A DNA stretch of 64,000 bases from Anaeramoeba flamelloides. Lineage: Eukaryota > Metamonada > Anaeramoebidae. The stretch is taken from NCBI GenBank assembly GCA_027625915.1, contig JANTQA010000047.1, positions 10,974,001 through 11,038,000 of the forward strand. The letters are read 5' to 3'. A model generated the notes under the pieces. The model worked only from the letters and a program-made list of their open reading frames with translations. It was not told the origin of the DNA and searched no databases. Each line of letters starts with the position of its first letter. Position 1 is the stretch's first letter. Positions 20,524 through 52,555 of this stretch are shown one piece after another. Made by a program: the position numbers and the translations under genes.

Positions 20524-20719
20524 CAGTCAGTTTCACTTTTAAGGCACAAACTTGCAACGTAATTTAAGGCACAATAAAAACCTCAAATTAAGGCACAAAA
20601 TTCAAATTCTAGTAAAAATAAATTTTAAAAAAAAAAATCCAAATTTTGTGCCTTAATTTGAGATTTTTTTGTGCCTTAAATTTTGTTAGAAGTTTGTGTC
20701 TTAAAAGTGAAACTGATTG
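20524..20719. mobile_element. Palindromic TA-MITE M4, inside LINE copy 1
   Basis: Left TA intact, right flank CA. Terminal GAAACTGATTG carries one change from the usual GAAACTGACTG. It lies between the LINE RT blocks GTIIPVIYF and RDPNKKVFIV. Confidence 0.85.
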
Positions 20720-21033
20720 CAAAAAATTTAAAAAATATACAAACAAATTCAAAAGAGATCCAAACAAAAAGGTCTTCATTGTAACTATTGATATTATGAA
20801 ATGTTTTGATGCTGTACCCCATATCCTGATTAGAAAATGTTCGAAGCTATTTATTAAAAATAAAATACTACTCAATTTTATTTTCAACTTTTACCTCGGT
20901 AGCGGTCATGGTATTTATCAAGGAGACCCACTATCTCCCATTATATTCGCGATCGTATCACATTTCCTTATCAACGAAATACGGAAATTTGCAGAACATA
21001 CTCAAATGTACGCTGATGACTTGATATTAATTA

Positions 21034-21230
21034 CAGTCAGTTTCACTTTTAAGACACAAACTTTCAACGAAATTTAAGGAACAAAAAAATCTCAAATTAA
21101 AGCACAATTTTTTGGAATTTTAATTTTCACAATTTATTTTTACTAGAATTTGAATTTTGTGCCTTAATTTGAGATTTTTTTGTGCCTTAAATTTCGTAGA
21201 AAGTTTGTGTATTAAAAGTGAAACTGACTG
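21034..21230. mobile_element. Palindromic TA-MITE M5, inside LINE copy 1
   Basis: TA on both sides. Inserted four codons after the catalytic YADD of the LINE reverse transcriptase; the frame LILI..MIGEIND is continuous once the MITE and one TA are discounted. Confidence 0.88.
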
Positions 21231-22028
21231 TATGATCGGTGAAATTAATGATATCAATTCAAGACTAGAAAAAATATTCCAGGTTATCAAGAACTTTGGA
21301 ATGAATCCAAATGACTCAAAAACATTAAAGAAGCTCAAATTGAAAGAAATTTTGTATTTAGGGATCATTCTTAAAAAGAAAGCACACCTAAAACAAAACG
21401 AATTAAAGGCTTTGGAAACATACAATAGATATTCGAGATTCTTCAACTCATATGCTATCTCGAATAAACTAAAACTATTATTCTTTAAGGCAATTATTCT
21501 ATCTCAACTTACATATGATCTCGAATTTTTTACATTCAATAAAGATGAAATAAAAAGTTTAAACAGTTTAAACAGTTGGATTATGAGTAAAGTTAAAATT
21601 TTCCTTAAAGTTCAATTTGGATCTCCTTCTAAAGTAGTCAGATTTGAGGCGAAAAATGAAGATATCGCCATAACATTGAATAAAAGAAAATGGAAACTGA
21701 TCCAAAAATTAAAAAAATTAAAATTGGAAAAACTTTTAACCGAGATTAAATTCATCAAAACCAATGATATAAATTGGCTCTTAGGAAAATACAATCAATT
21801 GAAAAAAGAAATATCAAAAAATAGAATAAAAGAAATACTATCTGTTGATGAGAATGATCCACATAAGAACTGGAAAACAAGAAAATATTTTAATATAATC
21901 ACAAACCAATATATTATTCAAAAAAACAACCTAAATGTATGGAAAACTCAACATTATCTAAGCTTCAAAAACTCTTACATTTTACTCAAATTCAGACTTT
22001 TCTCAAACTGTTTGAATAGATACTCATA

Positions 22029-22226
22029 CAGTCAGTTTCACTTTTAAGGCACAAACTTTCAACAAAAATTAAGGCACAAAAAAATCTCAAATTAAGGCAC
22101 AAAATTTGGAATTTTTTTTTTTTACAATTTATTTTTACTAGAATTTGAATTTTGTGCTTTAATTTGAGATTTTTTTTGTACCTTAAATTACGTTGCAAGT
22201 TTGTGTCTTAAAAGTGAAACTGACTG
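22029..22226. mobile_element. Palindromic TA-MITE M6, inside LINE copy 1
   Basis: TA on both sides. Inserted just upstream of the LINE zinc knuckle; the frame NCLNRYS..YVFNKEK is continuous without it. Confidence 0.88.
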
Positions 22227-23561: not shown

Positions 23562-26500
23562 ATGAGAAATTGCTCTTTCTATCTAAACTTTTGTTTTCTA
23601 TTGGCAATACTTTTTCCACTTGCACAAACCGGATCTCCACTTTTTGGAAAAACGACTTATTTGCTGCGAAAACAACAAGATTCTCTTGTCATTGATTCAC
23701 GCCATACAAGTGCCCTTAAAAGGGTACGTGAGGATGGATCAATGTCGATATCAGAAAAAGCTGCTCATGATTACCGGCTAACCTCTGCTCCGATAAGAAG
23801 AGATTCAAATGGGCTAAGTGGGGAATCTTTCTATGGCCTCACTGCAACAGCAAGAACAAGAGATAAGAAAAATAGCAATAATCTGCATGAAATAAAAAAC
23901 CAGAAAGAAAATTTGGGCATTAATTTACTACTCGAAAATTTCCAAAGTGAATACTCCATCGTTGATCCTCTTTTATACTCCTCATTCTTTTCAGGCTCAA
24001 AGCATGATTTGATCACATCTTTTTCAATTGGTGATTCTATTGATTCCTATACTGTGCTACTTGCAGGAACAACAAACAGCCCTGATTTCCCACAAAAAAA
24101 TGCGCTCTCGATTGTGGCTGATCCCGATGGATCTGATCTAATTGCATGGGTTGCCAGGTTTGACGTCAACGGAAACATTCTTTTTTCGACATACTTTGGC
24201 GGCAGCGTGACACAAAGAAACAGTGGCGTTACCAAACAACGAATTGTTCAGCCCACAAAAACTACAAGCGATTATTTGAGTAATTATTGGATTGTTGGTA
24301 CAGTAAGTTCCTTTCAGCAATTATTTGTGCTTGGCTTATTCTTTTTTTTGGATACAGTCTGTGCACTTTTTAACACACACCACAATTAATCAATCATTAA
24401 GTCACAAAAAAAAATTTTTTTTAAGGGGCTCTAGTCATTTACCGTGAATTTGCTCCATACTCAAGGAGCGACTTGAAACCAAAAAGGATATTGTGAAATT
24501 ACCCTTCATTTGATTGAAAAAATTCAAATAACAAAAAAAAATATTAGAGAGGATCTTCATTGGGACAAATAATTCATTTTTCAAAAAAAAAGTGTAAAAA
24601 GCTGAAAATACAGATAAAATTCCAAGAAAAAAAAAGTTTAAAAGCTTTTACAATTTCAAAAAAGCAAATTTTTAAAAAAATAGTAATTTATTCTCAATTT
24701 CAAAAAATCAAAATAAGAAAAAAAAAATCATCTTTTCTCATTTTCTATTGCCAAATGGTTAAATTTCTTCAATTTAAAACAAATTACTTTCTTGAATTTC
24801 GCAACCAATTTAATTCGATTTAATCTTATTTGTGGTTACTATTTGTTGCAAAATAAACCAAACAAAATTTTCATTCAACTTTCCTAAAAAAAGATTTTAT
24901 GTAAATCATGTTACTATTTAAATTATTGTATTCTTGAAAGGATCTTAAATTTTTAAATTTCTACCTTTGAGAATTGGGGACTTTGGTGATTTATTTTAAT
25001 TCTTTCGAGAGGTGATGTGTTTTTTTGGAAAGCTGAATGAAAATATTGATCTTTTTATTCTGCAATTCATGGTATTGGCAAAAAAATTCAATTTTCAAAA
25101 TAAAAGTACAAAACATTCTCTATTTAAAAAATTCAATTAAAAGAAAAACAATCACGAAAAATAAAAAAGTTTTAAAAGTAGATCTACAATTGCAAAAACA
25201 AAAAAAATTTGACTTGATAAAAAAATCCAATTAAAAATAAAAAAGTTTTCAAAGAATTCTAAACTCTTTCTCAAAAATTGTGACTCACCTGAAATAATAA
25301 ATTGAAAAAAAAAAATTATCCTTTAGTATTCAAGAACAATCAATAACTAAATCTGATTTGTAATTCTCTTTTAAGTCATTCTAAATCTATAAAAGCCTGA
25401 TATATTAAAAATTAAAAAAAATAAAACCAAAAACTAAAAAAAAAGTTAGTCACAATTTTTTAAATGAGCATTACCGATTTTTTATTACTGAACTTTCACT
25501 GAAAAAAAGTTGAACAACAAGATTTTTTATGGATAATTAAATCCATTTTCAAAGACATTACATATTCTTAATTTTCTTAGTGATTATTTGTCTTTTTCGA
25601 AGATCCTTTTTTTTTTCCACATGATCTTTTAAAAAAAAAAAAAAAAAGAAAAACAAAAGAAAAATAAAAATTTGAAAAAGCAAAACTAAAATTTGCAAAA
25701 TTAGAAAAAATGATTCTGATCTAAAAATTTGAAAATATTTTTTGTAAAGAATACTGGAATAAACCCTCAAAACAACTTCCATTAACATTATAAAGTAATT
25801 CAAAATTTATGAAAAATAGTTTATATTACAAAAAATTCATTTTTCAAAAAAAAAAGTTTAAAAGAAATCTCTATTTAAAAAATTCAATTAAAAGAAAAAC
25901 AATCCAATTAAAAATAAAAAAGTTTTCAAAGAATTCTCAATTACAAAAAATCAAATTTCAAAAAAAAAAGTTTAAAAGAAATCTCTACCTAAAAAATTCG
26001 ATTAAAAGATAAAAAAATCCAATTAAAAATAAAAAAGTTTTCAAAGAATTCTCAATTACAAAAAATCAAATTTCAAAAAAAAAAATTACTCGTTTCTTTT
26101 TTTAAATTTCCAAAGGGTTAAATTTCATCGATTTAAAACAAATTATTTTCTACAAGTACACAATCAATTTAATTCGATTTGATCAAATTTGTGGTTATTT
26201 TTCTCAATTCGGATTAAAAAAAAAAATTAGATACTAGAATTGCTGTATTAAATTTACTTTTTGAATTAGAGAAACTTAAAAATGATAATAAAAATAAAGA
26301 ATTCTAGGTGGTTACAATTGATATCAAAAAATACTTTGATACTATTAGTCATATATTAGTACACTATGCTCTCGATAAATATATTCGAAATGAAAAAATC
26401 AAAATTTGGCTTAGAAAATTATTTATGAAAGGTTGGATTCGGGGTTTATCAAGGAGACCCTCTATCTCCTTTATTATTTGGATTTATCAGTAATTTTTTA

Positions 26501-28416
26501 ATTTTTCAAATTAAACATCTTGCAAAACATGTTCAGATGTTTGCAGATGATTTGATTTTAATAATGGAAGGACCAATGTCAGAAATTGACAAAAAATTAA
26601 TAATAATTTTTAAAATTATTCAATAATTTGGAATGAATCCAAATATTGATAAAACAATAAAATCAAAAACTTTATCCAAAATTAAAATATTTAGGAATTT
26701 GGCTAGAAAAAGAAAAACATTTTCAAAAACATTTTGAAAAAGTAAAAGAAAGTTTTAAAAAAATTAAAAAAATTTTTAGCCAACAAAAACTCGTCAATAG
26801 AGTAAAATTACAAATGTTTAAATCAGTATGTATTGCCAATTATTTTATCAATTATTGATTTTTAATTTTACTCAAAAATATTTCAACTCCAGAGAGGCTT
26901 GGTTAAATAAAAAAAAGTCACAAAATTTTTAAAAATAAATCCACACTCCCCAAGAATAATTTATAAAACTGAATCTAAACTTGACCAAGTCAGAATTTCA
27001 ATTTACAAAAGAAGAGATAAACTCAAAAAGAAATTAGAAATACTAGGGTTTGATCACAGATCAAAAAATTAAAAATTTTCCAAGAAAAAAGATGAAAATA
27101 TTAATTGGCAAATAGAAAATTTAAAATTATTAAATGCAAATCTAAAAAAGTTTAGACAAAAATTAATTATAAATAGTTCTGGATGGAAATGTCAAGAATG
27201 TTTAAAAATTATTAGGTATAATAATAATATCAACAAACAGTCATGTCGTCAAGTTCCGTAGAGTGCCGTCAAGTGCCTAGCTTTTCCAGAATTCAAAAGA
27301 ATAGAGAAAAATCAAAGATTTTGCTCAATTCTTTTGAATTCTGGAAAAGCTAACGGCGGTTTTTTTTAATTTAAGAAATAACCACAAAATTTTTGAAATT
27401 TTCTGTTTATTTCAAAAATTAAAAAAAACCTAACAACAAAAAATATTTAAAATGGGTAAGCTCAACTTCCATTTTAAAATTAAGAAAGATCATAAATTAT
27501 CTAAACAGATATTCATCTGTTTATGATAAAAATAAATTAAAAACAAAATTCTGCAACTTATGTAAAAATCAATTTAATCTGGAAATAATAGAAGATATCG
27601 ATCATTTTCTTTGGGATCGTGTCGTCAAGTGTCGTAGAGTGCCTAGGTTTTTTTTAATTTCTAAATTTAAAAAAAACCTAACGGTGGTTTTCTTGAGGTT
27701 TTCTATTTTATCTGTAAAGTGTTCTAGGTTTTTTTTACTTTTTGAGGTTTTCTATTTTATTTGTGAAATGTTCTAGGTTTTTTTTACTTTTTGAAATAAA
27801 CAGAAAATATATTAAAATTTTCTGTTTATTTCAAAAAGTAAAAACAACCTAACAAAAATCAATAGATTTTCCAAATAAATAAAAAACTCAAAAAAACCTA
27901 GAACACTTTACAGATAAAATAGAAAACCTCAAGAAAACCACCGTTAGGTTTTTTTTAAATTTAGAAATTAAAAGAAAATTTCAAAAATTTTCTTTTTATT
28001 TCTAAAATTAAAAAAAACCTAGGCACTCTACGATATTCTACGGACACTTTTCGTTTGTTTTCTTGAGTTTTCCAGAAATTAAAAAAATAGAGTAAAATGA
28101 AAGCTTTTAATCAATTCTGATGAATTCTGGAAAACCGCCGTTAGATTTACTTGACTTTTCTGTTTATTTGGAAAACCTCAAAAAAACCTAGAACACTTAA
28201 CAAATAAAACAGAAAACCTTAAGAACATTTAGGTACTTGAAGGACACTTCTGTGAGGCTTTTTTTAATTTTTTGAAATTAACGAAAATTAAATAAATTTT
28301 CGATTTATTTCAAAAATTAAAAAAAACCGCAGTTAGGTTTTCCAGAATTTAAAAGAATAGAGGAAAATCGAAACACCATTTCAAAAACTGTTACTCACCT
28401 GAAATAATAAATTGAA

Positions 28417-28448
<32 letters not shown>

Positions 28449-31400
28449 ATGTATATATACTTTAGTATTCAAGAAAAACAAATAATTAAATCTGATTTGT
28501 AATTCACTTTTAAATGATTCTAAATATAAAAAAACCTTATATTTTAAAAATTAAAAAAAATTAAACCAAAAACTAAAAAAAAGTTAAATCACATTTTTTG
28601 AAAATGAACATTACCGATTTTTTATTATTACTGGACTTTCACTGAAAAAAAGTTGAACAACGAGATTTTTTATTAATAATTAAATAAATTTTAAAAGACA
28701 CTACAGAGTCGAAAATTTCTTAGTGATTATTGGTCTTTTCTAATATTTTAATTTTTCCTGTTATCTTTTGCAAAAAAAAAATTTCAAAAAAAAAAAAAAA
28801 TTTTGTTTCGATTTGGTCATGAAAATGATAATATTATTTTTTAATTTTAATATTAATTAACTATTTTTCTTCTTCGCTTTTTTTATTTAATATAATTTTC
28901 TTTAATTGCTCCTTTCTCTAAATAAATAAATAAAAAAAAAAAAAAATTTAACAAAAAAAAAAAAACAAAGACTACCACTGAGGATCTTCCTATAACGGTA
29001 AATTCGTTTAATCGGGCAACATTTAATGTACAAGAAATTTCGTTTATTATATGTTTAAGTAATAATGGAGCCTCAATTGAATATTCCTCAATGTTTGGAC
29101 AATGTGAAGATCATACTACAAGATTAATGTCTATTGAAAGTTTAAGTTCGCTTGAGGAAACGTATATCTTAATTGGTGGCTCTACAAATTCGTCTGCAGA
29201 ATTATACAAAAACGAAATCCAGACCAAGAATGAAAGTATTACAACATTATTTGCATATATTGGATTTTTGCGTATTTATTCTGATCGAACAGAATTATTA
29301 TTTGGCTCAGTATTTGGAGGTAGCAAGAGTGATATTATCGAAAATTCTGTTGTATTTTTTGAATCAAAAACTGATATTGCAATTTGGGTAACCGGAACAA
29401 CCCACTCAAATGATTTTTTTGACAATTATAACACAACCATTTCAGAAAACGTATCAATTTATTACGATGAATTTAAAGGTGATAATACGATGGGTTACTA
29501 TTTACGAATTTTGCTTTCAAACATTGATGATAATGATCATATCCAATGCCGTTTAACTTCAGCCTCGTTTCTTGGAGACGTCTACCCTGATCGCTCTCAT
29601 TGGATTGAAATTGATCACACCCAGTCTTTTTGGAAATATGGATACTATAAAGGACCGATCTTAATTGTTGGAGACACCTTAAATTATGACACTTTTTCTC
29701 ATGAAACCATCAAACCAGATTGGATGAACAAGACGGCAAATGAAGGCAAATCTTTGGTCGGCTGGTTAGTGCTTACAAACCATGATGGTACATCCCTTGA
29801 ACATACCTTTTTAGTGGGGTGCAAAAATGGTAGAACATCTCTCAATTTTGCTATGTTTCATTGGATTGATGCCGTTTTGATTTCTGGCTATACAAATTGC
29901 TCCAAGGATGAGATCAAGATTACAGATCAACTCTGGGACGATTCAATTATGGAGCAATTTGATTTGAAATATTTTGCAATGAATTTAAATAGAACAATTA
30001 TAAGAGAAGAAATTAATCAAATCAATTACGATGATGTCATTTTTTATTCAACATTTGTAGACGGCGTCGGCGATGAGGAATCCTTAGATAAGTATGCTGC
30101 AGTCAAAACTGATTTAGATGGTAACATCTATTCAGTATTCAATATAATTAATTATCAAAATTATCCGAATGATATTTTTACAGAAAATGCCTTTATGACA
30201 AAGACTCGTGGCACGTCAAGTATAATTATTAGAGTTTATGGCGGTGAAAATTGCAATCCTGGATCATATTATGACCAAGAAACTTTAATTTGTACATTTT
30301 GCGGTGCAGGTAAATATAATTTTTTTTTTTTTTTTTGAAACTTTATGTTTTTAGAGACACAACTCACAAACTGATATATTACTTCAATGACAACAAAACT
30401 AGAAAAATATTTCATTATTTGTTTGAATAAATTTTACATAATTATAAATTTCAAGTCTAATTCCACAAGCATACAAGTATCATTTTTTTTTTTTTTAATT
30501 CTGATTAGATTATTAAATTACTTAAATATAGAAAATTTGATATATTATTTAAATTTTTGTTTTTTTTTGTTCTTTTTGAAGATATTTAAATGTCAAAAGA
30601 AAAAAAAGAGCAAATTTTAAAAATTAATTTGTATTTTGGAAAAGTTTGTTTTTCTCAATATTTTTTAAAAAATACATTCATTTCCAATTCAAATAATCCA
30701 AAGCAAAACAAATTGACTGATTATAAACTAAAATTCAAAATTTTCCACACATTTAAAACAGTTCAAGCAATCACAATAATGCAATTTCATTCAAATTGGA
30801 AATAATTTTGATTTTTGAAAAATAGGAAAATCTTGAATTTTAGTTTATAATCAGTTAATTTGTTTTCATTTCATTTTTTGAATTACTTAACTTATTTGGT
30901 TGGATCGAAATATTTTTTTCAAACGATTGATAATATATGCTTAAAGTTGATGTTCTTCAAAAAGGAAGAACTCAAATAAAAATTAGTTGATAGTATCCTA
31001 ACCATTTGATCGATCAATATTCCTAATATAATTTCAACAAATTTACCAATGAATTTTTTTGTTTTGCCCATCCCCAAAACTTTTAACCGACTTTTGATTT
31101 ATTTGTATTGATAATTATTTATTTTTTGTTTTGGCGAGTATTGTAATTTATAAACAATTGTTAACATTTCAATTAGTGAATGTGTTCTAATTTGGTATTT
31201 CAATGAGAATTGATTAAATAAGATTATTTTTTTTCAAAAATTGACTTATGGTGTGTCAAAAATTTTGAATTGGAGTTTAGTTCTAATTATAATTTTTATT
31301 TTTGGTTTGAGTTTCAAATTTGTAAAAATTTTTTGAGGAATTATCCCAAATCAAAAAAAACTTTTTAAAATTAAATGAATCAAAAAAAAATATTACAAGC

Positions 31401-33943
31401 AAAATTCATCATAATAAAAAGCATTTTTTTTTTTGGTAAAAATTAATGAAAAAAAAAATAATAATAATTTCACCTGATATTAATTCCCATCAACATATAT
31501 TTTTTTCAAAAATAACCTTTCATTTTAAAAACAAAATATTTTTTGATTTTAGCAAATTTATAAACGTTTGAAATATGAACAAAAAATCCTCCTCCTCATC
31601 AAAATTAAAAAATAATAATAATAATTTTTCTTAAAAACAAAAACTAAATGAATAGGAAGTTATTCTGATAAATTTGGTGTAACAGAATGTCTCTCATGTC
31701 CCAAAAATACTTACCAAACTTATATTGGTTGTACAAGTTGTATTGAATGTCCAGAAGGTACATTTGCAACGGAGGGGCAAACATCTTGTACTAAGCATGA
31801 TTCCCCAAATCAATTATCACCATTTATTCATTCCATTCAGCACGATTCTTTTGGCATTGCGTGGGAATACAATGAAGAGGGGTACCAATACCAATTATCA
31901 TTAGAAAAGCCAACCGGGAAAAATGTATACTTTTTAATCCCAAAGCCTGATATTATTTATAAAAATGGAAATGAGAAATTTTTTGATTTCACATTACAAG
32001 GGTTACCCCCTGCAACAAGGCTTTATATTAGAATCAGAGGAAGGAATGTTGAAACAGATACTTTTGGGAGTTGGTCACCACGTTTGATGAATAATACATA
32101 CGGCCCACCGTTTCCTGTTCACTTTTCAAATATATATGAGGAGCAACATCCGTACTCTATTTCATTAAATTGGACTGAGCCCATTGATTATTCAAATGGC
32201 ACTGTTAAATATCAAATCAATTGGAAAAATGCAGAAATTGAAAATTCAAATTATCAGCACATCACTGTAAACCAACCAAACTACGAAATACCAAATCTTG
32301 TTAGTGATTCTATATACACAATCAGGATTATGCCGATCAATGATGCTGGCGATGGGTTTGCTTCAATTCCAAGGAATTTTTCGACAAAATCTGATGTGCC
32401 CTTGCAGGTTATCATTAGATCGCATTCGTCGTCAACGGATTCTGTCACTTTGGAATGGGATACACCTGATAACCAGGGGAAAACAATCACTGGGTATGAA
32501 TATTATATTAAATCCCCAAATGACGATGACTATAATAAATATGAACAATTTGGTGTTTGTAATGAATATACGATCAAGGAATTAAAGAGGAATACAAATT
32601 ATTCAATCACAATTAATGCTATAAATGGCAATGGAAGATCAAAGGATAATTTTGGCATCTATCAAACAAATGCTGATAAAGACGATTCAAAATTAAGTAA
32701 ATATTTCGCAATTATTTTTGGCTCTATTGGCGGCACTGCAATTATCATTGGAGGCGTTTTTTGGGTCTCTCGACCAAAAATTATTGCAAAAAAGAAAATC
32801 AAAAAAATCAAATCACAAATTAAACAGCATACAAACGATTTCAAATTAATGTTTAAAGACAAATTATATTGTACAGAGGAGACCTTGTCTTTTAATCATA
32901 TCAATACCGAAAATTCTTTAGAAAATTCTCGGAAGGAAATTATAAATAAGCAAATCATTGGTATTAAAAAAAATTGGATTGTTAACCAACAGGATTGTAA
33001 ATATGGACTTCTTTTTTGTAAAATTGTCCAATATAATGAAATGAGAATCTATAAAAAGCTTTGGAAGGTGTATTCTAAAAACCCTACTTTATTCCCGACA
33101 ATTCAGTTTGTTGGCAAAATTCCAATAAAAAATGATCAATTGGATTTATTAGAAAAAAACAATTTTACAGGCAATAACAATAAAAAGAAGAATAAGAGCA
33201 AAGGGGTGGATAAGAAGAAATTTATTGAAATGGATGATTCACAAGAAGAAGAAGAATTACAAAATTTAACATTGAATAATAAAAATGATAAATTAAAGAA
33301 TAATCTTTTTTTGATATCTTTAGAATGGTTTCCATTTAATCTAAGACAATACAATAAATATCGAAAAAAAGTACACTCGCCATTCACACTAAAGGAAAAA
33401 CTATGGATTTCTTTTCATTTGATAAATTCCTTGCATACCTTACATAAAAACCAAATAATACATCGAGATATTAAACCCCAAAATATTTTAATAGGAATGG
33501 ATGGTTATTTTAGAATAATAGATTTTAGTTCTGCAGTAGAATTGGCTGATGGTAAAACCTCAATTTCTGATAAATTTGTCGGTACAGAAAACTTTTTTGA
33601 TCCTGATTTAAAACCCTCTTTAGACCATTCAGACGGCATTTCTAACTATACTTACACTTTTGGTCATGATATTTATTCACTGGGGAAGACCATCGAAACA
33701 TTAAATTGGGAAAATAATAGTAATGACGGGGATTTAAATGTTAATGATAAGAAAAAGGAAACACAATTAAAGGCGCATTTACTTGATAAGGAAAAAAGAA
33801 AAAAAGAAATTAATTTAGAATTGTCATTGAAATTTGATGATTTTATTGAAATGTGTTTATCTCCCAGAAACGAAAGATTTTCTGCGTATCAGTTAATTGA
33901 ATTTTTATCTCCTTCTGTCATTCATTTTATTTCTGGACAATAA
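23562..33943 (+). CDS. Receptor-like protein: propeller repeats, Cys-rich, 3 FN3, TM, kinase
   Basis: Three exons, 23562-24302 (donor GTAAGT), 28971-30309 (donor GTAAAT) and 31656-33943, join in phase to about 1455 residues. A signal peptide opens it (CFLLAILFPLAQTGS). Residues about 130-660 are SBBP-type beta-propeller repeats (TTNSPDFP, STYFGGS, EDLPITVNSFN, SVFGGSKSD), a family common in bacteria. A Cys-rich GCC2/GCC3-like module (about 675-735) and three FN3 domains (about 740-1033) follow, then a TM at about 1042-1065 and a basic stop-transfer. The intracellular kinase (about 1115-1440) has FCKIV with Lys1149, an N/K/E-rich insertion, HRDIKPQN at 1296, and HDIYSLGKTI. The DFG motif is DFS (1316-1318) and the glycine loop is degenerate, so activity is uncertain. 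The architecture implies ligand binding outside and phosphosignalling inside. Intron 1 (4.7 kb) is full of repeats; intron 2 (1.3 kb) holds an R3 element. Confidence 0.9.
24560..24850 (+). repeat. A-rich dispersed repeat, unit 1
   Basis: Contains TTCAAAAAAAAAGTGTAAAA, a TTCTCAATTTCAAAAAATCA stretch and AATTTAATTCGATTT..TTTGTGGTTA near its end. The same order is present at 25820-26210, so the two are copies within the same intron (receptor-kinase intron 1). Confidence 0.5.
25264..25560 (+). repeat. Dispersed repeat R2, copy 2
   Basis: Matches 28385-28725 closely: ACTCACCTGAAATAATAAAT, TTTAGTATTCAAGAA, AATCTGATTTGTAATTC, CATTACCGATTTTTTATTA and TTTCACTGAAAAAAAGTTGA. Lies in receptor-kinase intron 1. 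Confidence 0.7.
25820..26210 (+). repeat. Tandem ~114-bp A-rich repeat plus flank
   Basis: The unit TTTCAAAAAAAAAAGTTTAA..AGAATTCTCAATTACAAAAA is repeated about 2.2 times with a period near 114 bases (gtttaaaagaaatctct at about 25856 and 25970). The flank 26086-26205 repeats 24738-24845. ORFs over it are low-complexity N/K-rich artefacts. Confidence 0.6.
26225..27605 (+). mobile_element. LINE copy 2, degenerate, with fold-back insertion
   Basis: RT motifs related to copy 1 are visible: VTIDIKKYFDTISH (motif A, about 26312), a QGDPLSP-like motif B near 26445 reached only by a frame change, MFADDLILI (motif C, about 26535), FGMNP..DKT, and at 27460-27605 LNRYSSVYDKNK and EIIEDIDHFLW. A fold-back module splits it at about 27241-27433 and another truncates it after HFLWD. 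Several frame changes and stops make it inactive. Lies sense-oriented in receptor-kinase intron 1. Confidence 0.82.
27241..27433. mobile_element. Fold-back element FB-b inside LINE copy 2
   Basis: Opens TCCGTAGAGTGCC, then hairpin AGCTTTTCCAGAATTCAAAAG with its complement ending at about 27352, then a second hairpin GGTTTTTTTTAATTTAAGAA paired to TTCAAAAATTAAAAAAAACC. LINE sequence resumes after it. Confidence 0.7.
27606..28058. mobile_element. Fold-back element FB-c
   Basis: Left end GTGTCGTAGAGTGCCTAGG then T8AATTT; right end is the complement AAAACCTAGGCACTCTACGA. Interior is a nested palindrome of GAGGTTTTCTATTTTAT and GTGTTCTAGG units (left arm about 27670-27800, right arm about 27840-27950). 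Non-coding and able to form a very long hairpin. Confidence 0.75.
28059..28384. mobile_element. Fold-back modules FB-d, abutting FB-c
   Basis: A TTTTCCAGAAATTAAAAA hairpin closing near 28135, a CCTAGAACACTTAACAAAT unit, then AGGCTTTTTTTAATTTTTTG paired with CAAAAATTAAAAAAAACC at about 28310. An R2 copy begins immediately after. Confidence 0.6.
28385..28725 (+). repeat. Dispersed repeat R2, copy 3
   Basis: As copy 2, with a (TA)n(TG)n microsatellite at 28416-28460 in place of the A-rich tract. Ends near the acceptor region of receptor-kinase intron 1. Confidence 0.7.
30724..31279 (-). mobile_element. R3 non-autonomous TIR element, copy 3 (inverted)
   Basis: Reverse complement of copies 1 and 2: begins TAAACTAAAATTCAAAATTT, carries the TTGATCGATCAA core (near 31008) and ends CAAAAATTTTGAATTGGAG. 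It fills about 40% of receptor-kinase intron 2. A small inverted repeat is also present at 30717-30853. Confidence 0.75.
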
Positions 33944-36020
33944 AAAGTAAAATGGTTATCGTAAGAAAGAAAAAAGTAGTTGGGGTAAATAAAATTTTGA
34001 AGATTAAAATAAAAAAAAGAAAAGATGATATAATTGTTTATTACATTTATTTAATTTTATTCTTCTTGTTTTATTTTTATTTTGTTCTATTTTTTTTTTT
34101 TTTTTTTTAATTATATATACATAATAATTAAGAAATAAAGAGATATAATATATCTTTTTTTTATTTTATGAAATAAATTTACATTAAAAACTCAGAAAAT
34201 AAATATAGATATTTTAAAAAAAAACAATTCATTTTTGGAAAAAACATATTTTATTTTATTGAAAATTTCTTTATAGAAAAAGATCATGAAAATTTAAAAA
34301 CAAAAATTATTCCTTTTTTTAAAAAAAATATCTATTTGTCTTCAAATTAAACTTCAATTCACTCAAAGGTTCACAGCCAAAAATAAAAAATTCACTTTTT
34401 TTTAAGAATCAAAATAAGATTAATTAGAAATAAGAATAATAATCAAGTTCATATTAGAGTTAACGTTTATAAAAGAAATAACTCGGCTAAACATAAAATT
34501 TTTTTAAAAAAAAAAATATTAAAAAATTATTTGGTAAACTTTTCATTTGAAATGTCGTACAAAATTTTTCAAATTCTTTAGGAAATTAAAAATTATTAAT
34601 TATCAAATATTTTTAAATCGGCAAAATATTTCATTATAAAAGACATTTATATACCCATTCATTTTCTTAATGTTAATTTAATAAAAAAATTTTTTTCTTT
34701 CGGATTGTCCTTCTTTAAAAAAAAAAATTCAAGAAAAGAATTTGGAGAAAAAAAAAAAAAAGTAAAAAGCAAAAAACGAAAAAACAAATTATTTGGAATA
34801 AATTCGAAAAAATGATCAGATCTCGAAATTTGCACATTTATTTTACGAAGAATATTACTGGTAAAACTCATATAATTTGTTTGGGATAATCAATTTAATG
34901 GGATTTTTTAAAATGTAAAGATGTTTATAATTAAAGTTGAACATTTTGAAGAGTTTTTTGTAAATTAATTTAAAACATATTAAATTACTTTATAATAAAA
35001 TAGTAAAAAAAACAGATAGAATTCCCAGATAAATATTTTCACAGATCTATATATAAATTTCATTTTAATGTTTAATTTGTTATGATAAAAAGATAATTAA
35101 ATTCTGTAACAATGATTCAATAGGGAATGAGTAACTTGTATCTAAAAAAAAATATTAACTACTTTTCAATAATTAAAGAAATAATATAAAAATGTTTCAA
35201 CTTTAAGTGTCTTTATATTCTATTTTATTTCAGCTTTATTCGTATGAGTTTATTGTTTAGGATTAAGTATTAGGTGTAAAAAAACTTTGTCTGTTTTCAG
35301 GGGTGGGGGGGTTATAAATGACTTAATGTTTAAATTCTAAATCAAAGAGTTGAAATTATTTAAACTTTGTTTTGTTTTCAAAGAATTTTTGATTTATTTT
35401 TCTTGTATTTTTAAAAATAAGATTAGAATTTCAATGTTGCCTATCTTGTTTTAAAAAAATGTGAGAATTCCTGAAAAACAAACTCTTTTTCAATTTTTTC
35501 TTTTTGTTTTTCGATCAGAAATTTAAATCAAACAGATCTAGATCTTTTTTACTCTTAGTGAATTGGGAAAACTTTCAATTTCTTTAAAAACTGATAACTA
35601 ATTTCTCAAATGTTGAAAACTAAGTTTTTTATCAGATTCAATTGTGAATTTGTGGAAATATGTACTCTATTTCTTTTGAAGTAAAAATAAAAAGGATTTA
35701 GAAGTAACAATAAACACTATTTAAAAGGAAACTTTTAATTTGGGATCTTTCTATTTATTTTTCTGGGCTTTTTTTATTAACATTCGTTAATTTTTAGAAC
35801 CCTAACAGCAAATTATATTAATTATTACAAAAAGAAAACCTTATCAAATTGGATAGCCTTAAAAGTTCAAAGAACACAATAAACTGACTTAATTATTTGG
35901 ATAGGTATTTTATAATAGGAAATTAAGTATTGGTTAAGAAGTTACCTTAATAAATAAGTTTCCTTTGTATTATTTTTTATCTTTATTATAAACTTACAGT
36001 TATCTTTCAATAAAAATCAG
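33944..36020. other. Intergenic, receptor kinase to EBP2-A
   Basis: A/T-rich. An inverted R5-like repeat relic lies at about 34640-34890 (AATGATCAGATCTCGAAATT..GAATATTACTGG). A G-run (GGGGTGGGGGGG) occurs near 35301. No gene seen. Confidence 0.5.
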
Positions 36021-36109
36021 AAAGATTTTGATCCAAAGAAATTTCAAAGAAAAATAAAAAACATTTTTTATTAATTCTTAATCATCTTTAATCTTTTCAT
36101 TTTTCAAAA

Positions 36110-39100
36110 ATGTTTGTTGAAGAAAATATCGAAGAAAAAGCACCACAAAAAGAAACCAAAAAAAACACAAAGGCAAAGAAAAAAACACCAAAGAAAAAAA
36201 CACCAAAGAAAAAAACACCAAAGAAAGAAACACCAAAGAAAAAAACACCAAAAAAAGAAACACCAAAAAAAGTAAACCCAAAAAAGAAAAACCCAAACAA
36301 GAAAAAAGAAAACACAAACAAAAAAAATCAAAACAAAAAAAACAAAAACAAGAAAAAAGAAAACACAAACAACAAAAATCAAAATGAAAAAAAAGAACAA
36401 AATGAAAATAAAAACACATCAAAGAAGGAAACCAAGATGAATAAGGAACAAGATTCGGAACAAAACAAGGAAAAAAAACAATTCCTTGGTGATGTATTTG
36501 ATAAAGCAGCTTTAATTGATAAATTAAACGAATTAATTTTTGACATTGGTGGCTCACCTGACTCTTTTGAATGGGACCAAACACAATTAATTAACACACC
36601 ATCACCAAACATCAACAACACAAATGACACCTTACTTGTTGAAAGAGAAATGTAAAATTTTGAACTTCCTTTTATTTCTATATTTCTTTATTTCAAATTC
36701 TCTTTTTATTTGCTTTTTTTTCTTTCTTATTTTCGATCAAACTTTTTTTTTTTTTTTTTGTTTTTTGTTTTTCAAACAAAATTCTTTGATCAACTTTCCA
36801 CAAAATCAATACAATTCCAATTTCAGTAATTTCAATTTCTTTTTGGAGAAAGGTCTTTCACAAACAATCTAAAACCAAGAGAGTTAATTTTTCTTTTAAT
36901 TATTTGATTTGATGAAACAAAAATTAATCTCAAAAGTTACGTAATCAATCAAAAAAATTAAAAAAAATTATTTTTTTTTTTTTTTTTTTTCTTATTTTTG
37001 AAATTCTGAACATAACCCAATGAAATTAAACAAAAACTCTTTTTTTTTTTTATTTTGTATTCAACAAATCAATAATTCCATTATTTGAAAAATAAATTTA
37101 CCTTTTTCTTTTCTTCTTCTCTCATCAATAATAATTGACATCTCGAATCTCTAGATCTCTATCAAGTTTTTCAATTTAATTGTTGACTAAACTATTTCAT
37201 CAAAGTGTTTCTAAATGTGATTCAACTGAAAAAATTTACCAACTTATTTTGAATTTATTATTAATTGAAAAATTAATTTCAAAAATTCCATTGATCTTTC
37301 CAAAAAAAAAAAAACGATTACTTACTGTGAATTGAAATTTAAAAAAAATTAAAATTTAATCTCAAAAGTTCAAGAAGGAATTGCCAAATTAAAAATTCAA
37401 AATTGTAATTTTTAACTGATTTTGTGAAAAGTCTTGTATTCTTTTAATTCATATTTCGTAGAATAGTTGGGTAATGAAAATAAAATTTTTCTTTAATTAA
37501 TTTTAAAATGACAGTATTCACTTCATTTAACTTACTTTTTAATTCTAATTCTTAGAAACTCTTAAATTAAAACAGTTTCTTGTTTTTAAAAGTTTCTCGC
37601 TTTTGAAAGATATTTTTGATATTTTTTCAAAAAATCTATGAAAAAAATTTATTAAATTTATTTTTCAATCAATAACTAAAATCACTAATCTTAAAACCCA
37701 CAATATTTTCAATAAATTATCTGTTAAAATTATTCAATGAGATTCAAAAAAAAAACATCGACACATTATTTGGAATTTATAAAAAAGATTATTTTTCTAA
37801 CAAAATAAAAATTTTGATAAATTGTTCACAACTTCTTATTTAAACACATGATTAAATTTTGAAAAAACTAACGCAAAAATTTCTTCTTTTTTTTTCAAAA
37901 TTTTATCTTTGTAGGTGAGATCCATGAAAAAGTAAATTATTTTAAAGTTTTTGACCAATTATCATAAAATTATTTTCAAAAAAATGAACACCAATAGTTT
38001 AAATAATTCATCAAAAAACTGTTCTGTTTGAGTCTTTTAAATAATTTTATGAAATTCTCTTTAACATTTTTGAATTTTACTTTTTTTTAAATTAATTTAT
38101 AAAAACATTGTTTATATTCAAAAACAAAAAAAAAACAACATTATATTTTTGTATAATCTACTGATGTAAGTCCAATAATGATTTTTCAAAATTTTGGAGT
38201 ATTTATAGACTGTTTTTTCATTTTTTTTTTCCCTAATACAGTAATCTGTTTCGTTAGATCTGGAATTTTTTTTTGATTGATAGAAGGTTAGTGTTTAGTT
38301 CTTTTAAATAGAAAAATCACATACAATTAGTTGAGGGAAGCTAACCATTTGATCGATCAATAATTGTTGGTGAAATTTCAACAAATTTAACAATGCATTC
38401 TTTGTAACCCTCGTTTCATTATTTTGGAAACATCAATATTTTTTTTTTTTCGTTTTATTTTGTTTCTTTCATTTGGATTAAAAATTATTACTTATAAAAA
38501 CATTAATACTGGGAAACTTAAATGTGATTAAATATTAAGTTTTGAAAAATATATAAACAATTGAGTTTTTTTTTCACCTATTTTTTATTTTGTGTGGGTA
38601 CAAATTTTTTGGAGTGTAGTTTAGTTTGAAAAACAAATTCTAACTAATTAAAGAGTGTTTCTCAAACTTTTGTTTTCTACTTCTTGATCGTTTATGAATT
38701 GAAAAATAAAATTTCAATTTAAAATTAAGAAATAACGATTTTTCTAAAATATGAAAAATGTTCAAGTAATGTTTCAAAATTTGACTCAATTTGATTTGAT
38801 AATTCAAAGAGATCTTGTGAAAAAATTCCTTAAAAATCGTAACATTTTATATTTTTTAAACATTTTTGATGAAATTATTTTTTTTGACTTGAAACTTTTC
38901 TCTTAATTCCAAAAATTAATCAATACCAAAAAAAATAATAATTTGTGAATGGGAAATAAACCAAAATGAAAAGATAAACAAAGATTGAGGATCTTAAAAA
39001 AAAAAAAAAAACACATTAAACACTTTAATAATATTAATCATACAGCTAATAGTGGTGTTTGTCGATTTGGTATACCAACCAGGATTAAATACTTTATTTT

Positions 39101-42100
39101 TAAAACCTAAACATTTTTCTTAGAAGCAGTGCTCTGTATTATTCATTGAAATATGTCGATTCCTAACAAAAATATAATTTATTGGTTGAAGGTTCAGAAA
39201 ACAATTATCAATGTTGATTTTTTTTTGTTTAAATTGGAAAAAGATTTTAGTTTTGTGAACAGAAATGATGTTAATAGTAAAAAGATATTAACTCGCAATA
39301 ATCCAAGAAGACATTTTTATTATTGTTGATAATATTTTAACAAGAAATTCTGTTACTTCATTTATTTATTTGACAAATGTGACAAATATAATGTGTATTA
39401 TCCAAAGACGGTTTTGTTCAGGTTCATTTTTTGAAACCCCCAATTTATTTTTTAAAAAAAGAAACTTGAAAAAACATTTTTTTTTATTTTCATTTTTTAT
39501 TTCAAGTTTTTCTCATTGTTTTGATTTACCGACCTATTTGTTAGAGGTTAATATTGTTTATTGGTGGTGAACATTTTATAATTGTGGAGAAAGTATTTTT
39601 TTTTTCCAAATGATGTAAATCATGTCCCAATTGGCATATATGAAATCTGTCTTTAAACTGTATATGTGTGTATACCTATACATTCATACATCAATCATTA
39701 TTATTATTTTTTGTTTTTGAGTTTGATTTCTGTTAAATTTATTATATGAATAATCAAAAAACAAAAGCAAATTATATTTGTGTATGAATTTTATTTGATT
39801 AGATATGTCTTACGTTACAATCTCAGTACTATTTTATTTTTTTTTTTCTTTTCGGTATTTTGTTCAATAAAGCAATCCATCAATTTTTAAATGAAGTGCT
39901 TTATGTTTTTCAAACATATTTTTTTCAAAAAGACCAACTTTGCAATGTATAATTTTTTTTCTCGTAAAAAAAATTTATAAGCTGATCAGTTTTAAAACAA
40001 AAGTTTTATCATTTGATGAGGAATGAATGGAATGGGACTTATTTTTGAAAATTAAAGAAATAAATTTCATAAAAAAATTTTTAAAATGTGATTTGAGTCC
40101 GGTGATAATGTACTAAAATTAGCTATTGTTTTAGTAATAAATAAAACAATTCAAGAAGTAAAAAGTATCTATTGGTTCTTTTTAAATGACAATGAAGAAA
40201 TAATGAGTATTGAAGTTGGAATACTTTAGGTATTTCAGGTTGATTAGAGGACTTTTATTTTTCTAAAAATGGATTATGAAATTTTAGGTTACATTTACAG
40301 TTCTTGAAAAGTGAGAGCACTAACGTTTTTGTTTACCATTGGGTGTGTGCAACCCTCTCTGTACTAAAGCGAAATATGAGTCAAAAAAAAAATAAAATGA
40401 GAAATGGTGAATAACCATTGTGAAAAAAATTTGGGTCATTAAAAAAAATTGGGTCAGTCAAAAATTTGTTTTCGTTTTTTAAATAGTAAATATTAGCAAA
40501 ATGATTTTTGATCAAAGTAAAATTTTATGAACAAATCTTACATTTAATAAAAACCAAAGTCACTATCAATAATAATTTTCAAAGGCAAAATTATTTCGTT
40601 GCATTTTGTGCTTATAGAATTACTGTGGAACTCTAAAAAACAAAAATTTATCTTTAATTGTAAACTTTACTAAAAATGTTGATTTTTTTTATTAGATTAC
40701 ATTCCAAGATCTAGTTAATCATTGTTTGGGAAGACCAAAAATTAATAACCGTTTTAAATTAAAGTTTGTCTAAGGGGATTTTAAGAATTTAAATGGTTTC
40801 TGAAATCTTGATATTTCGGTATTTTGAAGTTTTGATTGTAAACATTAGTGGAAAACAATCTCTTTCGAAAAAACATCCTTTTTGGAAGATTTTATAATTC
40901 AATTTGATTTAAAAGGTTATTTAAGATTAACCTTGATAAATTTGCGTTCATTAAAAATGATAAATATCTTATTGAATTAATAGATTTTAATATTTCCTAT
41001 TAAATATTTCTCTTATTTTTAGTAAAGTTGACAATTAAAAATCATTTTTTGTTTTTTAGAGTTCCACAGTAATTCTAAAAGGTTAAAATGCAACAATTTA
41101 ATTTTATCTTTGAAAATTATTATTGATAGTGACTTTGGTTTTTCTTAAATGTAAGATTTGTTCATAAAATTTTACTTTGATCAAAAATCATTTTGCTAAT
41201 ATTTACTATTTAAAAAACGAAAACAAATTTTTGACTGACCCAATTTTTTTTAATGACCCAAATTTTTTTCACAATGGTAAAATTTTATTTTGGTAGTGAG
41301 TGGTAAACTTGATCAATGAAAACATTTTTTATCTTTACCTTCTTTCTGGTTCTATTAACTTGATCTTCACTACCAATCATTTAAAAAAAAACAATTTGGC
41401 TCTCCTAAATATTGCTTTTTTTTTGATAATGAATCGATTTTAAGATTTGGGCAAAGAGTACATTATCCCCGGATTCTAAGTCATATACTAATGATTTATT
41501 TTTTATATTTGTTCTATTTATTGATATTTTATTATAAAAAAAAAAATAATAATAAATAAATATTAAAGAATTGATTCTGTATACAAAGGCGTTAAGCGAG
41601 CAGAAAAAGAATGTAAGAAATTGAAAATCAAATACAAAAGACCTGATGATTATTTTGCAGAAATGGTAAAAAGTGATCTTGAAATGGAAATGATCAGAGA
41701 GAAATTGGTTACTGAAAGAAAAAAAATAGAAGAATCTGAAGAAAGGAAAAAACGAAGAGAAATGAAAAAGTTTGGAAAGGCAATCCAAGACCAAAAGCAA
41801 AAAGAAAAGGCACAGAAAAGAAAATCCCAAATTGAATCAGTGAAAAAATGGAGAAAGGAAAGGAAAAGAAAAGGATTTGCTGGTGAAGATGATGAAGAAC
41901 AACTTGATAAGATTATAAATCAAACGACACAAAAAAATAAAAAGAAAAGACTTTCAAAAAGAGAATGGAAAAACAAAAAATATGGATTTGGAGGAAATAA
42001 GCCCCGTACTCGAAACAACGATAATAGTGGAAGACTAACTGAATTCAGCAAAAGAAGAAATAATGAAGACAAATCATTTTCTAAATTTAATAGAGGACGA

Positions 42101-42184
42101 GGTGGCGGAAGAGGTGGTGGAAGAGGAAGAGGCAGAGGAAGAGGAAGAGGCAGAGGCAGAGGAAGAGGAAGAGGTAGAAAATAA
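36110..42184 (+). CDS. EBP2: EBP2 rRNA-processing protein, copy A (two exons)
   Basis: Exon 1 is 36110-36651 (ends GAAAT before GTAAAA); exon 2 is 41569-42184 (after ATTAAAG). The split codon AT|A is in phase and reads VEREIIDSVYKGVKRA across the junction. The conserved EBP2 block follows: KRPDDYFAEMVKSDLEMEMI, then K/E-rich coiled-coil sequence and KNKKYGFGGNK near the end. EBP2/EBNA1BP2 is a nucleolar factor for 60S ribosomal subunit and 27S pre-rRNA maturation. The N-terminal third is a lineage-specific lysine tract of TPKK repeats and KN runs, resembling histone H1 tails; the C terminus is a (GR)n/GGR tail, common in nucleolar RNA-binding proteins. The protein is about 385 residues. The 4.9-kb intron holds a MITE. 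ATG 36110 follows the 5' flank shared with copy B. Confidence 0.9.
38270..38640 (-). mobile_element. R3-like relic in EBP2-A intron
   Basis: Contains GCTAACCATTTGATCGATCA followed by ATTTCAACAAATTTAACAAT and a terminal GGAGTGTAGTTTAGTTT, as in the inverted R3 copy at 30724-31279, but with many changes. Absent from the copy B intron. A still more diverged stretch occurs at about 59760-60000. Confidence 0.45.
40415..41277. mobile_element. Long-TIR MITE (PIF/Harbinger-like), complete, TAA target duplication
   Basis: The ends are perfect inverted repeats starting CCATTGTGAAAAAAATTTGG and staying nearly identical for about 260 bases on each side, around a core of about 330 bases. The flanks are TAA (40412-40414 and 41278-41280), a 3-bp target duplication typical of PIF/Harbinger elements. 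No ORF, so non-autonomous. A second copy begins the window. It lies in the EBP2-A intron, 291 bases before exon 2, and is missing from EBP2-B. Confidence 0.85.
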
Positions 42185-47783: not shown

Positions 47784-49846
47784 ATGAAAATAATATTGTT
47801 GTGTTTTCTTTTGCAAATAATTTTTCCAACTTTAATTTGTAAAGCCCCTTTATTTTTTAAACTCCGCCACCAACACTTTGTTTGATCAAACAGAAACAAA
47901 AAAACTATGAAATATTTTTCTTTTTTTCTTTTTTTCTCACACTTTCCCACAAAACCAAAAAAACAAAAACAGGCTGTAAACTTTGTCCAATTTTAGAAAA
48001 AACTGATAAAATCTTAACTTCAAACTCACATAGCCATGACAATCTTCACATTCAACAATTAGAAGATGACAAGTATTGTTTGATTCATTCAAGTTATGAT
48101 CGAAGCAAGGAGCTAGTGAGTGTCTATGGTTACATAATCACTTCTGAGCCGAAAGTACTTGTTGGGCCTGTAGTTTTGGTTAGTGGCAACAATTTGTCGC
48201 CTCACCATTACGAGTCTGCAGTTTTGAATGGATCGGCTCGGATTGTTTTAACATGGGAGGCCAAAATAGGCAATGTGCTTCGGGTTACATTTCAAGTCTT
48301 TGATTATGCTTTGAAGAACACCACGGATCAAATTCGGGTGCACAACCCGCCAAGTGCGAATTTCACTGACTATTCGTCGTCGATTCTGTCGATTGGTTCT
48401 GGGGAGTTGTTTGTTCTGAGTTGGGCATTCCAAGATTTATTGGGGAGCGATTATATACTGTATTACGATATATTTGATAGCAAAGGCAAGTCGGCACTAA
48501 AGGCTGGTCCAAATGTGCTTTCGAATAGCACAAATAATGAGCATCTATCTCAAAAAAATTATTTGGTCGATCAATCCAAATTTTTGATTACCTGGAACAC
48601 CCGTAGCCTTGTTGATGTGCAAAATGCAACAATTCTTTTCCAAATTATTGGAAATGATGGCAGTCCCTTTGGAAAGCAGCAAGCCATTAATGATCAAGAC
48701 GAAACGTTACATATTCATACCAAAATTCAAATGTTCTCATCACTCTCCAGATTTTTAATCGTCTGGGCATGTCAAAAGAATGTGTCTTCCAATTATCAAA
48801 TTTACGGCAAGTACTATTCCTATACGAGCAAGCCCATTGGCAAGAAGTTCACAATTCAAAACAAAAACTCTGAGGACCAATTATATCCACAAGTGTTACC
48901 TCTTTCGACACAATCCAAATGGATCCTTTCCTGGAGCCAATATAGCAACCAGAACCGATTTGACATATATGCCCAGTTGTTTGAAAACCTTGACACGCCT
49001 ATAGGCAGCGCCTTCCTTGTCAACAATTATACAGATCAGGACCAAGTGCAATCCGAGTTGATCTTGTTCAAAAACGATACCTTTCTTGTCATCTGGAAAA
49101 GCTTTGGGCAAGACAGTGATTTGAATGGCATTTATGGCCAGTATTATCAGCAACACGGCCAGAAAATTGGATTGGAATTTAGAATCAACCAAAAGACGGG
49201 GGGCTCTCAAGAAGGGTTATCATATTTTTCTGTCTCAAATGAAAAAGTTTTATTATCTTGGATCACAAAGGATCAAGCCAATGTGGATTCGCAAAATAAC
49301 ATTTGCTTACAAAGGAGGATGCTTTCGGAACTCAAACCCAAAAGCGCAATGCCAAAACTGCAGTATACCGGAAACACGGCCTTTAGTTACATCTTCTCTG
49401 ATTCAATTTTTAATGAAAACCATCATGCTGTAAAGTATAAATCGCAGCTCCAGTCATTGCAGCCTTTACCAGATTGGCTAAAATTCGACCCCGATGTCAA
49501 GCAACTGTTTGGTACACCCCCTAACACAGCCCAGAATTTGTCTTTAATTATCAAGGCAACTAATAATTGTGGGTTTTCCTCGGTCTCAAATTTCAATTTA
49601 GTGATCAACAAAAAAAGTTCCAAAAAATCTAGTTTTCCTTCATGGAAAACAGTTATTGGTATACTCATCCCAATAGTTTTAGTAATCACTTCAGTCGTTA
49701 TTACTTATCGCACTTTTAAATTCCCCAAATCAAAAACTAGCTACCAAAAAATCTCATCTCTTGAGCAATATGAAATGACAACAACAACTTTTAGTTCCTC
49801 TTCAGAAGACCGTTTAATGAGCCAAATTAACGATAACGATCTTTAA
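47784..49846 (+). CDS. Single-pass surface protein: W-motif propeller repeats plus cadherin-like domain
   Basis: Exon 1, 47784-47838, encodes a signal peptide (MKIILLCFLLQIIFPTLI) and ends before GTAAAG. Exon 2, 47973-49846, starts after AAACAG. The phase 1 junction gives ICCKLCPILEK; total about 642 residues. The ectodomain holds at least seven repeats of about 45-60 residues, each with a hydrophobic-x-W strand and a Y/G strand: IVLTW, FVLSW, FLITW, FLIVW, WILSW, FLVIW, VLLSW; the later ones read GIYGQYYQQHGQKIGLEFRI. This resembles bacterial surface propeller repeats. A dystroglycan/cadherin-like (CADG) domain follows at about 481-565 (LPDWLKFDPDVKQLFGTPP). A TM lies at about 576-598 and a Ser/Thr-rich tail of about 45 residues ends the protein. 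Likely adhesion or ligand binding; ligand unknown. The exon is less A/T-biased than its surroundings. Confidence 0.88.
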
Positions 49847-52466: not shown

Positions 52467-52555
52467 AAAGATTTTGATCCAAAGAAATTTCAAAGAAAAA
52501 TAAAAAACATTTTTTATTAATTCTTAATCATCTTTAATCTTTTCATTTTTCAAAA

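Follow-up and report, generated by a model that had tools for sequence, protein, structure and literature searches.

The window, a stretch of 64,000 nucleotides from the genome of Anaeramoeba flamelloides, carries on its forward strand a gene of three exons coding for a protein of 1455 amino acids. The gene starts with an ATG at position 23562 and its stop codon ends at 33943, so that the coordinates proposed in the earlier note are exact, with start and stop codon at the two ends. Exons 23562-24302, 28971-30309 and 31656-33943 join in frame across two introns with GT-AG borders. The features of the gene are listed below (window coordinates, strand, description, basis).

23562..33943, +, whole gene, three exons, 1455 amino acids; exon order recurs at 21 loci
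23562..24302, +, exon 1, 247 codons: signal peptide, linker, the first blade and the greater part of the second; donor gtaagt
23976..24302, +, predicted propeller, first part, residues 139-247; profile matches at 139-211 and 208-287
24303..28970, +, intron 1, phase 0, with decayed retrotransposon-like stretches
28971..30309, +, exon 2: remaining propeller and start of the Cys-rich module
28971..30245, +, predicted propeller, second part, residues 248-672; profile matches at 358-396 and 606-666, model pTM 0.74
30252..30309, +, Cys-rich module, exon-2 portion, beginning at residue 675; sequence
30310..31655, +, intron 2, phase 1, missing in 7 of 21 paralogues
31656..33943, +, exon 3: Cys-rich module, FN3 domains, transmembrane segment, kinase, stop
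31656..31795, +, Cys-rich module, exon-3 portion; matches Ephrin_rec_like (PF07699) with 28.5 bits, the cut-off being 23.1
31814..32095, +, FN3-like domain 1, residues about 747-840; sequence, unrecognised by Pfam in the window copy
32105..32389, +, FN3 domain 2, residues about 844-938; fn3, boundaries by eye
32396..32680, +, FN3 domain 3, residues about 941-1035; best fn3 stretch
32702..32767, +, single transmembrane segment, residues 1043-1064; hydropathy
32948..33913, +, kinase domain, residues about 1125-1446, interrupted between beta4 and beta5 by a low-complexity insert; Pkinase, alignment boundaries
33020..33022, +, beta3 lysine K1149; invariant in the 17 aligned proteins, read in the other four
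33461..33469, +, HRD motif, H1296-D1298; sequence
33521..33529, +, DFS in the place of DFG, D1316-S1318; sequence

Domain organization of the encoded protein

From its N-terminus the window protein is arranged as a putative propeller (about residues 139-672), a Cys-rich module (675-740), an FN3 region (747-1035), a transmembrane segment (1043-1064) and a C-terminal kinase. Its N-terminus is hydrophobic (residues 3-28), with a signal peptide assigned by hydropathy to about residues 1-22. Thirteen of the 18 N-glycosylation sequons are found N-terminal to the transmembrane segment, a distribution of little weight alone. The first exon junction yields an SBBP-like stretch (IVGT from exon 1 followed by TTTEDLPIT from exon 2) and the second falls within the Cys-rich module. 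Splicing is deduced from conserved splice sites and from paralogues.

Pfam gives matches above cut-off for exon 3 to fn3 (4.7e-22, two stretches), Pkinase (8.5e-21) and Ephrin_rec_like (1.4e-6); exon 1 has no match at all and exon 2 none above cut-off. The predicted SBBP-type propeller, FN3 domains, transmembrane segment (by hydropathy) and kinase lie together in one gene, as the earlier note had it. Ephrin_rec_like is above cut-off in four of six other members of the family scanned. The claim of three FN3 domains stands for two of them by Pfam (PF00041), while the first in order is assigned by eye from the sequence and by comparison with a member (L023) that has three fn3 stretches; the other five of the six members scanned have two, like the window copy.

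The window has a G+C content of 17-37% in steps of 2 kb, and scans of it with Rfam and for tRNAs found no match. A duplicated block occupies positions 35994-37312 and 52440-53811, and again 41536-42181 and 55763-56420, with 92-97% identity between copies that lie 16.4-16.5 kb apart. A gene for an EBP2-like rRNA-processing protein (PF05890, 2.3e-40) is present twice, at a distance of 14.2 kb. Other observations are a Wntless-like transmembrane stretch at 11973-12635 (1.3e-6, barely above cut-off) and, at 47861-49843, a 661-codon ORF that matches the He_PIG Ig-like domain (2.4e-6) and is located where G+C over 2 kb reaches its maximum for the window (37%). Decayed stretches resembling reverse transcriptase were noticed by eye in the sequence upstream of the gene (about 20622-22044) and inside intron 1 (26240-27250); Pfam has no match in the upstream portion 21154-22044.

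A family of 21 loci in the same genome

The source genome comprises 254 Mb in 76 contigs, and its genes have introns. Searching it with the ectodomain gave 63 matches, including 21 loci for the exon-2 part. Exons 2 and 3 are separate at 14 of these loci, and at the other 7 both parts are in one frame of 1269-1346 codons. The acceptor of intron 1 is at the same residue in all 21 loci, its donor matches in 12 of 12 loci where it was read, and for intron 2 both borders were read in 12 loci out of the 14 that have three exons. This recurrent exon order, with its conserved splice sites, bears out the reading of the three exons as one gene. A splicing artefact was discarded as an explanation in view of the 21 loci of the same structure, and bacterial contamination because the genes are spliced and their contigs measure 2-24 Mb.

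The search with the transmembrane-kinase part (E<=1e-10; 100 of 1077 candidates scored) gave 28 matches that fall in exactly the same 21 loci, so that every locus with the propeller (21/21) also holds the kinase. With a query of 135 residues of the kinase core, the 21 family loci score at E<=1.6e-31 and the next kinase at 8e-11 (150 of 516 scored). This gap indicates that, within the limits of the search, the kinase clade goes with the propeller in the source genome. The receptor class of propeller plus kinase announced in the earlier note is a family in the source genome, where the count of homologues with the same order, which that note called for, stands at 21 loci.

Between the window copy and a close paralogue at C33, dN/dS amounts to 0.112/0.345, 0.031/0.383 and 0.041/0.322 in exons 1, 2 and 3, a ratio of 0.08 for exon 2 and 0.13 for exon 3. 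Two further pairs of paralogues have values of 0.065/0.387 and 0.039/0.227. Such low figures between close copies argue for working genes whose coding sequence is under constraint. The separation into a two-exon and a three-exon clade is found alike in the tree of the propeller (21 rows, 100/100) and in that of the kinase (18 rows, 100/99); in the latter the deeper order inside the three-exon clade is weak (72/78). Leaving the close copy aside, identity to the window copy is 32-51% in the exon-2 propeller, the best kept region, 30-43% in the kinase and 24-38% in the FN3 stalk. Better conservation of the propeller than of the stalk fits a conserved head with a putative binding role, and no sign of fast evolution of this head was found across the family regions compared.

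One family copy (L048, C13:10275000-10280900) has its FN3-transmembrane part and its kinase part in different frames, and its near twin at C13:9875400 is an open frame. At least one locus may thus be a pseudogene or an assembly error.

Nature of the propeller

The SBBP-like seven-bladed propeller is best known from bacterial surface proteins. Pfam SBBP (PF06739) finds nothing in the joined propeller of the window protein at E<=10, and among the 21 exon-2 pieces of the family it matches a single one, at E 0.11, short of the curated cut-off. Because Pfam misses the window copy, a separate profile was built from prokaryotic repeats. A DNA pattern for the SBBP core motif DFPTTPGAFQ gave at least 119 prokaryotic loci, of which 80 were used (L068-L147; L073 is an archaeal MAG), and the resulting profile has 70 positions and draws on 458 repeats of 77 proteins. 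Exactly seven repeats were counted in 50 of these 77 proteins at the threshold used, the others having 1 to 10.

The prokaryotic profile matches all 21 members of the family (2.0e-20 to 6.2e-7; window copy 9.4e-15) in a database of 1132 sequences, in which the best decoy is at 0.11; the decoys were made from family sequences, 1100 by shuffling and 11 by reversal. Along the window protein its matches are strong at residues 139-211 and 208-287, weak at 358-396 and 606-666, and below zero at 446-472. Blades 3 and 6, around GGSTNS at 317 and SGYTNC at 553, are called by motif and strand pattern only. Profile, motif and strands together give about seven units. A profile of the family, in turn, matches proteins of the same genome that Pfam recognises as SBBP: L004 at 4.2e-13, L001 at 7.5e-8 and L003 at 1.6e-4, the best of 800 shuffles being at 0.12. 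Another such protein, L005, is not matched (E 2.7), which counts against a simple reading. Single-sequence BLAST in a search of four proteins gives hits to L004 (5.7e-7) and L003 (3.1e-5).

AlphaFold2 modelling of the exon-2 part together with 50 rows of prokaryotic SBBP sequences (mean pLDDT 70.6, pTM 0.74) predicts four-stranded sheets in series, about five in number. The best PDB matches of this model in Foldseek are two entries of CylK (3.7e-8 and 9.6e-8; TM 0.49 by query length), followed by other propellers with far weaker scores or poor superposition. The C-terminal domain of CylK is a seven-bladed propeller (PMC8916777). The earlier note expected the ectodomain to match a propeller in structure, and its exon-2 part does model as one; as the prokaryotic rows of the alignment may have shaped the model, the fold is supported, though unproven. 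Searched by sequence, the PDB has no match to the window propeller at E<=1, and with the family profile of the propeller it returns unrelated folds at E>=0.24.

The SBBP label, resting on our own profile, on likeness to those proteins of the source genome that Pfam itself calls SBBP and on the predicted fold, points to an SBBP-type propeller that has drifted beyond the reach of Pfam. The SBBP assignment of the earlier note stands in this form, with 21 of 21 members matched and a CylK-like model, and fails in that the cut-off of PF06739 is not reached.

Origin of the ectodomain

Five other loci of the same genome (L001-L005) encode proteins with SBBP above the Pfam cut-off. Four of the five carry Ephrin_rec_like modules, several of the same-genome SBBP proteins having strings of them, and in L003 the domain DUF7948 precedes SBBP. 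In their scanned stretches Pfam finds neither FN3 nor kinase. DUF7948 accompanies prokaryotic SBBP proteins. It is above cut-off in at least 40 places of the source genome, some of them in frames of more than 1200 codons, and among 14 control genomes it was detected only in Bacillus subtilis and Methanosarcina acetivorans. Raw material for SBBP fusions would thus be abundant in the source genome. Since SBBP proteins are at home there, the receptor head and its Cys-rich module most likely derive from this resident pool. A locus search with L003 in prokaryote genomes gave 589 pattern stretches, none of which was confirmed, and the DNA pattern for DFPTTPGAFQ had no match in viral contigs.

Kinase domain and its active site

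The kinase domain scores 75 bits (8.5e-21) against a Pkinase (PF00069) cut-off of 31.7. HRDIKPQN, DFS and the missing glycine loop are all in the window sequence as the earlier note described them. The motif HRDIKPQN is of the Ser/Thr type. In a PDB search with a profile of the kinase C-lobe, TTK is nearest, followed by STE20-like and other Ser/Thr or dual-specificity kinases (best 60 of 104 matches). A single-sequence model of the cytoplasmic part is uninformative (pLDDT 36).

The beta3 Lys, the alphaC Glu, the HRD Asp, the Lys of HRDxK, the Asn and the Asp of DFx are invariant in the 17 aligned proteins; with the four members that were read singly, all 21 have Lys, Glu, HRD Asp, Asn and DFx Asp. 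The Gly-rich loop between beta1 and beta2 (GxGxxG) is absent from all 17 aligned family kinases. The third residue of DFG is Ser in 13 members (AGT or AGC), Asp in 7 (GAT) and Gly in one (GGT), the DFD members being exactly the 7 two-exon loci. The nearest kinases read outside the family, L187 and L188, have an intact DFG. Since AGT and GAT are each one base away from GGT and the outside kinases keep DFG, it is simplest to suppose that the glycine was lost twice, separately. The sole DFG member of the family (C48:18377255-18377647) is nested in the Ser clade and may be a reversion. L187 (C57:2553501-2557800) and L188 (C9:7587001-7591000) encode long proteins in which an fn3 and a filamin repeat separate two kinase stretches.

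Haspin (DYT) is an active kinase with an altered DFG glycine and ILK (DVK) a pseudokinase without it (PMC4718504). As both kinds exist, sequence alone does not settle activity. Conservation of the residues of catalytic chemistry across deep divergence favours an active kinase over a pseudokinase, and the domain is probably active, with a rewired active site.

Alternative readings and proposed mode of action

The kinase may instead belong to a pseudokinase receptor with weak or no nucleotide binding that would act as a scaffold or be paired with an active kinase. In its favour, none of the 17 aligned members has a Gly-rich loop, one member of 21 retains the glycine of DFG, and many pseudokinases are altered in DFG and P-loop (PMC4718504). 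However, invariance of the chemistry residues in 17 of 17 proteins would not be expected had catalysis been abandoned long ago; the purifying selection on the kinase exon also stands against it, a point that alone fits both readings. We regard a pseudokinase as unlikely, yet as the most serious of the competing explanations.

A good deal less probable is an ectodomain of another kind, beta-rich and propeller-like but unrelated to SBBP or convergent with it. It would account for the failure of Pfam SBBP to match the window protein and for the restriction of strong profile matches to blades 1 and 2, the others being weak. It agrees poorly with the match of the prokaryotic profile to 21 of 21 members, with decoys at least five orders weaker, with the single-sequence BLAST hits to L004 and L003, and with a model closest to CylK. 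Hardly credible is a chance neighbourhood in which three unrelated exons or genes have been read as one: splicing is inferred, and the 4.7 kb of intron 1, with their retrotransposon debris, do part exons 1 and 2, but order, junctions and phases are identical at loci on other contigs and the exon-2 and exon-3 parts share an open frame of 1269-1346 codons at 7 loci.

We favour, as the probable explanation, a single-pass receptor kinase with an SBBP-type head, a stalk of Cys-rich module and FN3 domains, a transmembrane segment and a probably active kinase, a family of one origin now present at 21 loci. The seven-bladed propeller would be outermost and bind a ligand, and the layout suggests that the Cys-rich module and FN3 stalk relay the signal to the membrane, where one transmembrane segment, predicted by hydropathy only, would lead to the cytoplasmic Ser/Thr-type kinase. 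By analogy with MET/RON, the most likely working mode would be ligand-driven clustering followed by phosphorylation in trans. The family may have arisen once in the ancestry of the source genome, when a resident SBBP ectodomain of bacterial type met a kinase, and duplication could then have spread it over 21 loci, which form two clades. The whole sequence of events, in which a eukaryote acquired a bacterial-type seven-bladed propeller that came to be used in many of its surface proteins and as the ligand-sensing part of a novel class of receptor kinases, convergent with MET/RON and still catalytic although the entire clade has a rewired active site (P-loop glycines absent, DFS or DFD for DFG), is put forward tentatively, as somewhat short of an even chance.

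Comparison with known receptors and propeller proteins

MET and RON have a seven-bladed Sema propeller, a PSI Cys-knot, an IPT Ig-like stalk, one transmembrane segment and a cytoplasmic kinase (PMC3405059). The window receptor has the same layout in outline, a likeness of layout only, for which no common origin is claimed. MET and RON use Sema, IPT and a canonical tyrosine kinase, whereas the window receptor has SBBP-type repeats, FN3, HRDIKPQN, DFS or DFD and no Gly loop. The Pfam matches of the window protein include neither Sema nor PSI nor IPT, nor any family specific to tyrosine kinases, and on this sequence evidence the protein is not a member of the MET/RON family. ROS1/Sevenless also have propellers in their ectodomain, of the YWTD type. 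They resemble the window receptor in combining FN3 and propellers in the ectodomain of a receptor kinase, and differ in that their YWTD-type propellers are set among FN3 domains and their kinase is a tyrosine kinase. An extracellular fibronectin domain is tied to the Sev and InsR families in PMC8662651.

Among bacteria, PknD of Mycobacterium is a receptor Ser/Thr kinase with an extracellular six-bladed propeller as sensor; unlike the window receptor it is bacterial and six-bladed, and the accessible portion of PMC2877116 mentions neither FN3 nor a Cys-rich module in it. A survey of 2005 on prokaryotic Ser/Thr kinase architectures describes PQQ and WD propellers, SBBP and fibronectin having no occurrence in the part of its text available. 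CylK, the nearest in predicted fold, is a cyanobacterial alkylating enzyme with an N-terminal Ca-binding domain, whereas the window protein is a receptor kinase; the name SBBP does not occur in the part of the CylK paper at hand (PMC8916777). Surface proteins of prokaryotes with SBBP (PF06739), in many cases accompanied by DUF7948, likewise tend to have seven repeats (50 of 77) and differ in being recognised by Pfam, which the window copy is not. The proteins of L001-L005 have SBBP and Ephrin_rec_like in common with the window receptor and lack FN3 and kinase in their scanned stretches.

We found no description of an SBBP receptor kinase in the open-access literature. Propeller receptor kinases are already known in animals and bacteria; the SBBP-headed version would be new. 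The family raises the question of what a non-animal, eukaryote-type receptor of such a kind senses. Its 21 copies in one genome make a natural series in which to study how a kinase functions when the P-loop glycines are absent and the last residue of DFG is Ser, Asp or Gly. If our reading is true, the layout that MET/RON and PknD exemplify was assembled independently in a eukaryote from a propeller of bacterial type.
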